A stretch of DNA of 64,000 nucleotides from Lysobacter concretionis Ko07 = DSM 16239 (GTDB lineage: Bacteria; Pseudomonadota; Gammaproteobacteria; Xanthomonadales; Xanthomonadaceae), in NCBI RefSeq assembly GCF_000768345.1, contig NZ_AVPS01000003.1:186001-250000 (forward strand), written 5' to 3'. The stretch's first letter is position 1. Each line of letters starts with the position of its first letter. Positions 20,137-47,499 of this stretch are shown one piece after another. The notes beneath the pieces are model-generated. The model was not told the origin of the DNA. It saw nothing but the letters and a program-made list of their open reading frames with translations, and made no database searches. The position numbers and the translations under genes were made by a program.

Positions 20137-20170
20137 CGCCGCGGCCATCCCGTCATGGATGGCCGCGGCG
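20137..20170. terminator. 12-bp hairpin between convergent receptor and GST genes
   Basis: CGCCGCGGCCAT pairs perfectly with ATGGCCGCGGCG across a 10-base loop, starting 13 bases after the receptor stop. There is no T-tract, so it may be a structured 3' end rather than a classical terminator. Its GGCCAT...ATGGCC core is shared with the hairpins at 27921, 28105 and 28135. Confidence 0.55.
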
Positions 20171-26275: not shown

Positions 26276-27607
26276 TCACCCCTTCTCGAACACCGCGATC
26301 GACTCGACATGCGCGGTATGCGGAAACATGTCCATCACGCCCGCAGCCCGCAGCGTCCAGCCGCGCTCGTTGACCAGATACGCCGCATCGCGGGCCAGCG
26401 ATGCCGGGTGGCAGCTCACGTAGACGATCCGCTTGAACTGCTCCAGCGGCAGCTCGGCCAGCACGAAGTCCGCGCCCGAACGCGGCGGGTCCAGCAGCAG
26501 CTTGTCGAAGCCCTCGCCCATCCACGGCTGGTCGCTGAGATCCTTCGACAGGTCGGCGGCGTGGAACTGCGCATTGGCAATGCCGTTGCGCGCGGCATTG
26601 TCACGCGCACGCTGGACCAGTCCGGCATCGCCCTCGACCCCCACCACCTCGCGCACCGAGCGCGCCAGCGGCAGGGTGAAATTCCCCAGCCCGCAGAACA
26701 GATCGAGCACACGATCCTCCGGCTGCGCCTCCAGCAGGTCGATCGCCAACTGGATCATCTTGCCGTTGAGTCCTGCGTTGACCTGGATGAAGTCGAGCGG
26801 ACGGAATGCGAACTCCAGATCCCACTGCGGCAACCGGAAAGCCAGCCGGGGATCGTGCGGCCACAACGGATGCACGCTGTCGACACCGCCGGGCTGCAGG
26901 AAGATCGCAAACCCGTGTTGCTGGCCGAACGCGACCAGCGCCGCCTGGTCCCCGTCGCACAACGGCGCCATGTGGCGGACGGTCAACGCGACGCCATTGA
27001 AGTCGGGCATCGGATCGCCGGCAATGAACTCGATCTGCGGGATCTCGCGCCGCGCCTGCAGGCTCTCGACCAGCGCTGCGAGCGCTTCGACCTTCTCGCC
27101 GACCTCCGGAATGACGGTATGGCAATGGGCGATGTCGGCCACGAAGCGCGGATCGGTCTCGCGGAAACCGACCAGGGTCTTGCCCTTCTTCTCGACCCGG
27201 CGCACCGAAAAACGGCCCTTGCGACGGTAGCCCCAGGTCGCGTCGGTCAACGGCTCCAATACGCGTCCGGGAACGATGCCACCACTTTCGCGGAGGTTTT
27301 CCAGCAGTACGGTCTGTTTGGTGAGGATCTGCCGGTCGCCGGCGTAATGCTGCATCGCGCAGCCGCCACAGGTGCCGAAGTGGGCGCACCGCGGCTCGAC
27401 CCGCTCTGGCGCCGCCTGCAGCACCTCGACCGTCCTGGCCTCATCGACACCGCGATGACGCCCCGTCCGCGCCGCCATCACCCGTTCGCCCGGCAACGCG
27501 CCGGCCACCAGCAAGGTCTTGCCATCGGGAAGGGAAACGACGCCACGGCCGTCATGGGACATGCCGTCGATGACGACTTCAAAAGGGGTTTTATCCAGGC
27601 GGGCCAC
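26276..27607 (-). CDS. rlmD: 23S rRNA (uracil-C5)-methyltransferase RlmD
   Basis: SAM-dependent methyltransferase for U1939 of 23S rRNA. A TRAM-like beta domain comes first (about 5-60), then the [4Fe-4S] cysteines CAHFGTCGGC and a later Cys, then the Rossmann methyltransferase domain with VLDLFCGLGNFTLPLA (SAM loop), DPPRSG, and the catalytic cysteine in VYVSCHPASLARD. Homologues begin near RLDKTPF, so I chose the GTG at 27607 (443 residues). No clear ribosome site is visible, and a start a few codons further upstream is possible. Upstream lies the repeat-rich intergenic region. Confidence 0.93.
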   Translation of the reverse strand: MARLDKTPFEVVIDGMSHDGRGVVSLPDGKTLLVAGALPGERVMAARTGRHRGVDEARTVEVLQAAPERVEPRCAHFGTCGGCAMQHYAGDRQILTKQTVLLENLRESGGIVPGRVLEPLTDATWGYRRKGRFSVRRVEKKGKTLVGFRETDPRFVADIAHCHTVIPEVGEKVEALAALVESLQARREIPQIEFIAGDPMPDFNGVALTVRHMAPLCDGDQAALVAFGQQHGFAIFLQPGGVDSVHPLWPHDPRLAFRLPQWDLEFAFRPLDFIQVNAGLNGKMIQLAIDLLEAQPEDRVLDLFCGLGNFTLPLARSVREVVGVEGDAGLVQRARDNAARNGIANAQFHAADLSKDLSDQPWMGEGFDKLLLDPPRSGADFVLAELPLEQFKRIVYVSCHPASLARDAAYLVNERGWTLRAAGVMDMFPHTAHVESIAVFEKG

Positions 27608-27765
27608 AGGCAAAAGCAGGAAGCTCAGGGCCGCGTATTGTCGCAGATGCGTCCGGGCCGGCAGCGGTCGCCGAATGGATCGCGGGGGCTGCTCCCGGGT
27701 GGGTCTAACGGCCATCCCCATTTGCTTGGTGTTCGAGTAGAAGTGCGTGTGATTGCGTAGGCAGC

Positions 27766-27836
27766 GTCTGCCGGGTATCCCGATCAGTCGCTCCACGATA
27801 TTCGCTTGGTGATCGGGACACCCGACAGGCGCCACC
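27766..27836 (-). repeat. 71-bp palindromic element, copy A
   Basis: Matches 31889-31959 in inverse orientation at about 65 of 71 bases. Each copy is itself an imperfect palindrome: on the minus strand CTGTCGGGTGTCCCGAT and ATCGGGATACCCGGCAG are inverse at 15 of 17 bases, around a 27-base centre. Not a recognised insertion sequence. Confidence 0.85.
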
Positions 27837-27887
27837 AAAATTTCCCGGTACCCGAAGGAAGATCAAAAGCGCCCTGCCAATGAATCG

Positions 27888-27959
27888 CCGATGCGGCGTC
27901 CTGACGGGGTGTTGCGGACAGCGGGCCATGGATGGCCCGCGGCGGTGAGTACGGCCATG
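27888..27959 (+). repeat. 72-bp direct repeat, unit 1, with GGCCAT hairpin
   Basis: Identical to unit 2 (28072) at 68 of 72 bases. Contains the perfect hairpin GCGGGCCATGGATGGCCCGC at 27921-27940. Confidence 0.88.
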
Positions 27960-28071
27960 CACGTTCTGTCCGGAACCAGCAGCCCAATCGATGCGTGTAT
28001 TGCCCAGACAGCGCCTACCGGATTGTCTCGGTGGCCGACGGAAAGCCCCGCTGCGCCACGTCAACGAATAA

Positions 28072-28143
28072 CCGATGCGGCGTCCTGACCGGGTGTTGCG
28101 GACAGCAGGCCATGGATGGCCTGCGGCGGTGAGTGCGGCCATG
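28072..28143 (+). repeat. 72-bp direct repeat, unit 2, with GGCCAT hairpin
   Basis: Second unit, 184 bases after the first. Its hairpin GCAGGCCATGGATGGCCTGC (28105-28124) differs from unit 1 by a paired change that keeps the stem intact. Confidence 0.88.
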
Positions 28144-28152
28144 GATGGCCGC
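28135..28152. repeat. Third GGCCAT hairpin
   Basis: GCGGCCATGGATGGCCGC, a perfect palindromic hairpin overlapping the end of unit 2. Unit 1 has only the left half of this hairpin. Confidence 0.8.
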
Positions 28153-28211
28153 CCGAACCGGGCAGCAAGCACCTGGTCAGGGCGACGCCCCGCCCGAAGC
28201 TAACAATCCGT

Positions 28212-28255
<44 letters not shown>

Positions 28256-28288
28256 CCATCAACTCAACCACCAACCAACAGCAGCAAC

Positions 28289-28906
28289 CTACTTCTGCTT
28301 CCAGCTGCTCCCGCTCTGGTACCACCAGCCGCTGTGTGCACTGGCGATCCACTGCTTGGCGAACACCTCGCGGATCTGCGACTCCCACTCCGGGTGACCA
28401 TTGGCCACCGCGACCTCGCGATACACCGCGTTGCGGTCGCGGTTGTCCTCAGCCACCGCCTGCTGGATCTGCGCCCGGTCCTTCAGCGCCAGCTTCGATG
28501 CGTCGCGCACCACGATCGTGCCGTCGCTCGCAAACCCGAGCGCGCCCGCATCGAAACCCGCACGCAGCGTCGAGTTGAAACGCGCGGCCATCCGCGACTG
28601 GATCGCCTGGATCGCCGGCGTCTTGATGCTGATGTCGGGCGACTGCGCATGCGCGCTGCCGATGCCGACCAACGCATACACGTCCACCCGCGAAGCCAGC
28701 TGCCGCCACGACATAGGGGCGAGCATCGCACTCGGCCCACCCGACTTGTCATCGGCCGGAGCGGCCGCGGGTACCTCTTCGCCGATCACCTTGTCGACGA
28801 ACTCCTTGGCCGCCTCGCGCGCTTCCGCCGCGGGAAAATACACATTGATCGTGACGCAAGCCGTGACCATCACGGCGGCAACCGGAATTCCCATCCAACG
28901 GCGCAT
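28289..28906 (-). CDS. ydbL: YdbL/DUF1318 lipoprotein with YnbE-like N-terminus
   Basis: Partner of the AsmA-like protein YdbH, which together with YnbE moves phospholipids to the outer membrane in E. coli. The 205-residue product has a lipoprotein signal with lipobox VTAC (Cys17) followed by VTINVYFPAAEAREAAKEF. Its C-terminal half resembles E. coli YdbL, including the Trp-rich end. E. coli YdbL is a shorter, soluble periplasmic protein, while YnbE is the lipoprotein; here no separate ynbE fits in the 45-base gap after ydbH. The ATG has GGAGA upstream. The DUF1318 call is firm; the combined role is inference. Confidence 0.85.
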   Translation of the reverse strand: MRRWMGIPVAAVMVTACVTINVYFPAAEAREAAKEFVDKVIGEEVPAAAPADDKSGGPSAMLAPMSWRQLASRVDVYALVGIGSAHAQSPDISIKTPAIQAIQSRMAARFNSTLRAGFDAGALGFASDGTIVVRDASKLALKDRAQIQQAVAEDNRDRNAVYREVAVANGHPEWESQIREVFAKQWIASAHSGWWYQSGSSWKQK

Positions 28907-31828: not shown

Positions 31829-31888
31829 AGCGAACGGCTTGGAGCGCCGCCCTGCCGGGGTGCTTTCTTTCGGCCACCGAAGAATTCC

Positions 31889-31959
31889 GGTGGCGGCTGT
31901 CGGGTGTCCCGATCACCAGGCGAATATCGTGGAGCGACTGGGCGGGATGCCCGGCAGGC
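31889..31959 (+). repeat. 71-bp palindromic element, copy B
   Basis: Inverse copy of 27766-27836 (about 65 of 71 bases), placed between the REC-Hpt gene and recO. It ends 3 bases before the recO stop codon (31962), so it may act as a 3' structure for either convergent gene. Confidence 0.85.
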
Positions 31960-31961
31960 AC

Positions 31962-43838: not shown

Positions 43839-47499
<3,661 letters not shown>

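Follow-up and report, generated by a model that had tools for sequence, protein, structure and literature searches.

The window analysed, a stretch of 64,000 nucleotides from Lysobacter concretionis Ko07 = DSM 16239, carries a block of repeats flanked by the genes of RlmD (NF009639) and of a DUF1318 protein (PF07027), each on the minus strand. The gap between these two genes is 679 bases, a length exceeded in just 2 of the 57 relatives having both genes, and the repeat block is thus an insertion in the lineage of the window. The features of the locus are given in Table 1; the repeated unit to which most of them belong is called an arm in what follows. GTTGCT-type hexamer repeats (28205-28255) come right after the complete arm, and runs of GTTGCT or CTTTGC were also seen 3' of other arm copies, in this genome and in others. 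The second dispersed inverted repeat has a conserved loop and the core GCGAATATCGTGGAGCGAC, and a reverse copy of it was recognised by eye near 31880-31960. A weak match to the family model on the minus strand at 45325-45443 (24.6 bits, E 0.011) is perhaps a decayed arm or a chance hit.

Table 1. Repeat features of the window and the basis on which each was placed
Feature	Coordinates	Strand	Basis
Second dispersed inverted repeat	27764-27832		Upstream of 11 arm copies in the genome; association only
First unit, a truncated arm that reaches the start of hairpin B	27888-27959	+	45.5 bits, family model
Hairpin A of the first unit, GCGGGC-CATGGATG-GCCCGC	27921-27940	+	Unit alignment
Complete TwoAYGGAY-like arm, to which the second unit belongs	28076-28194	+	114.7 bits, family model
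Basal stem, 5' side (P1 + P2)	28077-28099	+	Alignment columns 4-26, pair counts
Hairpin A of the complete arm, GCAGGC-CATGGATG-GCCTGC	28105-28124	+	Alignment, fold
GAGT, hairpin B (28135-28152, loop CATGGATG), CCGA; tandem G-A positions	28131-28156	+	Alignment, fold
Basal stem, 3' side (P2 + P1)	28165-28188	+	Alignment columns 94-117, pair counts

The initial annotation had described two 72-bp direct repeats, and comparison of 27888-27959 with 28072-28143 gave the identity claimed (68/72), with mismatches at 27906/28090, 27923/28107, 27938/28122 and 27951/28135. The compensated base pair that it had pointed out is present as well: 27923/27938 and 28107/28122 lie on opposite sides of the stem of hairpin A in their respective units and form a G-C pair in the first unit and an A-T pair in the second. 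The third hairpin reported downstream is hairpin B of the complete arm. The repeat extends beyond the 72 bp noted, over 91 nt with 89% identity. The pattern GGCCATN{0,10}ATGGCC was found four times in the window (0.16 expected; four or more in none of 100 shuffles) and 22 times per strand in the genome, compared with once for the backward control. A further hairpin at 20137-20170, which had been held to be related, is real and folds stably, but the family model gave no match there, so its kinship to the repeats did not hold up. This hairpin is strong, single and located directly 3' of an apparent stop codon, and the Rfam P13 model scored 31.3 bits on it (cut-off 70).

We built a covariance model, R1, from 15 aligned and folded copies of the window genome; the fold of this alignment has a double change at 21 of its 37 pairs. 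R1 gave 26 matches in that genome at E≤1, 21 of them strong (E≤2.5e-10) and one of the weaker ones an antisense shadow. The element is about 117 nt long. Its variable basal stem, of some 17+4 pairs, leads to a junction with hairpin A and with a short tandem-G-A stem that carries hairpin B, both hairpins having the loop CA(N)GGA(N)G. In the loop of hairpin A (C-A-N-G-G-A-N-G) both N are variable and the other bases almost fixed, the loop of hairpin B is similar or shorter by one base, and the tandem-GA columns (GA and GA) are nearly fixed in the consensus. At least two CA(N)GGANG motifs were present in 111 of 133 distinct matches and at least one in 129, in a count where identical rows were merged and weak matches and one shadow were included. 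CANGGANG is the RsmE core, and the loop CA(N)GGA(N)G has the CsrA/RsmA pattern. In the window, the fold of 28072-28190 was better than those of all 200 shuffles (z -5.4, and -4.0 for the minus strand), while that of 27888-27999 was matched or bettered by 42 of 200.

A DNA search of the genome gave extra copies with a long loop insert. A GC-rich, hairpin-forming insert of about 85-100 nt, following CA(N)GG directly and changing GGA to GGG, occurs at several loci in the apical loop of hairpin A, of hairpin B or of both (L339 6471 and 6578, L028 1544 and 1657, L031, L071, L076, L436, L235 and L240).

Selection for the folded form had been deduced from the compensated pair of the two units. One double change in two copies does not prove selection, since a template switch from one arm of an inverted repeat to the other can yield both changes at once (PMC8794818); the deduction was supported by the covariation of the other copies. 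In 82 matches (74 distinct), 95.6% of the cells were paired, versus 67.9% after shuffling and 38-43% with slid partners, and 664 cells showed a double change versus 185 in shuffles, with none of 500 shuffles reaching the pairing or the double-change value; the alignment was fitted to R1 and related rows were counted separately, which favours the model, but the gap is large. The basal stems of the 17 copies in genome G057 were 46-48% identical and 97% paired, and the unpaired core was 86% identical. Stem identity between copies was 53-62% in G127, G136 and G137 and 82-83% in G097 (7 copies).

For seven G057 sites an orthologue was identified in G119 (L. daejeonensis GH1-9). In six same-arm pairs with 223 stem pairs, 173 were unchanged, 26 had changed on both sides and still paired, 9 had changed on one side and still paired, 10 had been broken by a one-sided change, and 5 had two-sided changes but did not pair in both genomes. 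Changes were seen at 14 of the 166 bases of the unpaired core and at 2 of the 62 in the loops. This comparison leaves out L363/L428, where the two species keep opposite arms, and its alignment is less certain for the basal stems of L361/L430 and L364/L426, which have indels; L361/L430 is a doublet in one species and a single arm in the other. An excess of 26 pair-keeping double changes over 19 single ones, with seven double changes and no single one in hairpin A, is also what could be left by neutral palindromes, in which template switching or conversion between the sides of a stem keeps complementarity without selection. The double changes often fall in adjacent pairs, as templated events would leave them, and such a mechanism is described in PMC8794818. 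Template switching may be the source of the raw double changes in the arms; a wholly neutral origin predicts no excess of G-U over C-A pairs and leaves the constant loops and the tandem G-A unexplained.

The basal-stem cells of 221 arms contained 271 G-U and 25 C-A combinations, a count with some bias because the alignment model itself somewhat favours G-U. These 221 arms, also used for the doublet, spacer and gene-placement counts, remained from 273 aligned rows once identical sequences had been merged and 15 named matches removed, of which 11 were antisense shadows of a stronger match and 4 were weak or cut off. The ratio of G-U to C-A was 89:18 in the left arms and 79:17 in the right arms of 48 divergent doublets, and hairpin A alone showed no lean (10 versus 11). 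Such an excess points to one strand, the one bearing GGA, being kept folded, and since we infer that the strand of an arm was assigned mainly by its loops and junction, it is largely independent evidence for that strand. The excess weakens the neutral reading, which we consider very improbable. The excess of double changes, the double changes between orthologues, the near-constant loops and the one-strand excess of G-U together make selection for a single-stranded fold likely, and both RNA and single-stranded DNA fit it.

R1 at E 0.001 matched 35 of the 119 family genomes, 15 of the 200 from the order and 3 of the 369 from the class. Among 25 named genomes, eight carried arms: Pseudoxanthomonas sp. 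J35 (43), Luteimonas padinae (22), Lysobacter daejeonensis (20), L. colneyensis (Luteimonas; 19), Luteimonas abyssi (18), Vulcaniibacterium gelatinicum (12), Luteimonas mephitis (3) and a Thermomonas bin (2). Neighbouring arms at most 700 bases apart formed 51 divergent, 11 tandem and no convergent pairs (n = 62), with one convergent pair at a larger distance, 791 bases (L112). Plasmid, phage and viral collections gave no arm match with the queries tried. At L110 1949-2713 and L111 2025-2835 divergent arms flank a protein, an addiction-module antidote protein (TIGR02684) at the former and an HNH protein (PF01844) at the latter, and L109 holds a protein too. A general cargo between the arms was rejected, the spacers being short in most doublets.

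The copy number of up to 43 per genome, the patchy presence and the divergent doublets, in which each arm keeps its own outward strand, could also come from a mobile element acting as single-stranded DNA, of the REPIN or MITE kind, whose loops and bulges would be read by a transposase and which would have no role as RNA. G-T pairs are tolerated in single-stranded DNA as well, and one arm lies in frame (L112 2917-3031) within the ATP-dependent helicase gene hrpB (TIGR01970) of G081. This site is variable: six of the seven relatives listed are without an insertion and one has a different insertion. No target duplication was established, the sole hint, a weak one, lying beside the hrpB copy. By hand count, 23 of the 35 carrier genomes and 60 of the 84 lacking the element have a Y1 transposase. 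No arm of convincing score (23.7 bits at best, E 0.043) was found in 32 transposase neighbourhoods of carriers, which cover every Y1 gene listed for them except the third of G108. This distribution and these neighbourhoods led us to reject mobilisation by RAYT or TIRYT as a present-day link. The copies are, moreover, inherited in place at orthologous sites, and their loop matches a motif of protein-bound RNA. A role purely as mobile single-stranded DNA is possible but, in our view, doubtful.

Compared with REPs, REPINs and TIR repeats, as characterised in PMC3733652, the arms are likewise dispersed and often intergenic, form inverted dimers (51 of the 62 neighbouring pairs being divergent) and lie in some cases within reading frames. 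REPs measure 20-40 bp and carry a GTAG or CGTC tag; the arm instead has about 117 nt and two hairpins, lacks this size and tag, and is not found flanking Y1 genes. The Y1 gene of the window genome is adjoined by an ordinary GTAG-type inverted repeat. Integron attC sites, IS200/IS605 ends and riboswitches were set aside by their general anatomy.

Of 141 arms that could be placed relative to genes, 69 lay between convergent and 10 between divergent genes, while 4 of 68 element-free neighbouring gene pairs were convergent; these placements rest on crude gene calls, and 80 further arms were not placeable. Such a bias would suit a role at 3' ends, in which a stable hairpin terminates or shields the transcripts of convergent gene pairs and its GGA loops serve a purpose other than CsrA. 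That explanation leaves unaccounted for both the invariance of the CA(N)GGA(N)G loops in the two hairpins and the fact that each arm of a doublet keeps its strand, and a mobile element would also gather in convergent sites because such sites are harmless; we regard it as improbable. Between co-directional genes, 26 arms were sense and 36 antisense, which does not favour read-through in one direction. A promoter in the doublet spacers was sought and none was seen, a -10-like motif showing no excess in 48 spacers (8 in 6442 bases, versus 223 in 147049 bases of the loci).

The Rfam model TwoAYGGAY (RF01731) matched the window arm end to end at 28062-28203 with 35.2 bits (E 2e-4, 151 bases searched). 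As this is below the gathering score of 43 bits, the arm is called TwoAYGGAY-like instead of being assigned to the family; L340 (46.6 bits) and L341 (45.0 bits) gave matches above the cut-off. TwoAYGGAY was not listed by Rfam at gathering over the whole window, nor at E 5 over 27600-28350 (751 bases), where it was presumably missed through stricter filters. The family has two AYGGAY terminal loops, as has the window arm, and occurs in Gammaproteobacteria; its tandem GA in the stem and its poorly conserved outer stem, as given in PMC4333381, are both features of the arm. The arms differ from it in being high-copy and dispersed, in forming divergent doublets and in having copy-specific basal stems. 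The 2010 listing of TwoAYGGAY (PMC2864571) classes it as a probable RNA, not cis-regulatory, with no known function, and binding of CsrA by it was already proposed in 2014 (PMC4333381), so the proposal is not new here. In the main texts of the open-access literature searched, we did not find the Lysobacteraceae form, dispersed divergent doublets, up to 43 copies per genome, copy-specific basal stems changing in pairs, or the sister form described below.

Distant matches have other backbones with the common plan and loops. In G171, three arms of a distant form surround the RNase P RNA gene, on both sides of it (L340 1204-2236). A sister (GAGCC) form, sought with the pattern GAGCCNCCANGGATGGNTTCACGG and at most one mismatch, occurred in 17 of 369 genomes of the class and 16 of 272 genera, with none for the backward control among the matches listed. 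At 29 sites taken from its loci, the two N beside the loop stem paired as T-A (13), C-G (11), A-T (3), G-C (1) and T-G (1), 27 sites had, by pattern, a first hairpin with a GGA loop, and 27 had a basal stem of at least 12 pairs with one mismatch allowed. The stems of the sister form vary from genome to genome, and some copies within one genome have similar stems. The Rfam TwoAYGGAY model scored 30.9 bits (E 0.0022) on L446 and 22.2 bits (E 0.2) on L443, where a microRNA model scored higher.

The sponge RNAs CsrB/CsrC and RsmX/Y/Z have GGA in hairpin loops, the form bound by CsrA, and the arms have it too, in pairs. The arms differ from these RNAs in having two loops each, many copies per genome and no known promoter, and no gathering-level Rfam match was found in the window. 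RsmU of Xanthomonas campestris, as presented in PMC7694677, is an RsmA-binding RNA with GGA motifs from a related genus; unlike the arms, it comes from the 3' UTR of one mRNA, is reported as limited to Xanthomonas and is no dispersed repeat. According to the same paper, the sequenced Xanthomonas genomes have no CsrB-type homologue.

The analysis shows the fold of the arms, their paired changes, the preferred strand, the constancy of the loops, the doublets, inheritance at orthologous sites and a likeness to RF01731, and we propose, with a probability of about one half, that the arms are RNA modules whose two loops would take both halves of a CsrA/RsmA dimer. The unit seen in the window is one arm of a dispersed TwoAYGGAY-like element that presents, on one strand, a long basal stem and a junction with two hairpins having CA(N)GGA(N)G loops. 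Arms would have arisen from divergent doublets that entered sites for the most part intergenic, many of them flanked by convergent genes, and were inherited in place after entry. Where an arm is transcribed, its two loops could hold both halves of the dimer, and the copies might be decoys dispersed over the genome or local sites at which CsrA lands. The window genome has one CsrA gene (PF02599, 92 bits). Two results speak against such a role: the spacers lack a promoter signal, and arms between co-directional genes show no sense bias.

A more specific version, fairly unlikely in our estimation, is that the doublets, mobile now or in the past, are outward-facing pairs of CsrA/RsmA decoys which spread in the Lysobacteraceae, the sponge side of the system being carried by tens of scattered arms and not by one or two RNA genes, with the outer stems renewed by paired changes and the loops fixed. 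This version assumes, by analogy with what PMC7694677 reports for Xanthomonas, that CsrB-type RNAs would be absent from the carrier genomes.

The orthologous pairs are a clear case for studying the origin of compensated double changes. With more than 200 natural variants having fixed loops and free stems, and many copies per genome, the CsrA role proposed for TwoAYGGAY is directly testable, and close genomes with and without the element also serve this purpose. If the arms bind CsrA, a dispersed set of them in relatives of Xanthomonas would bear on how the Csr system is balanced.
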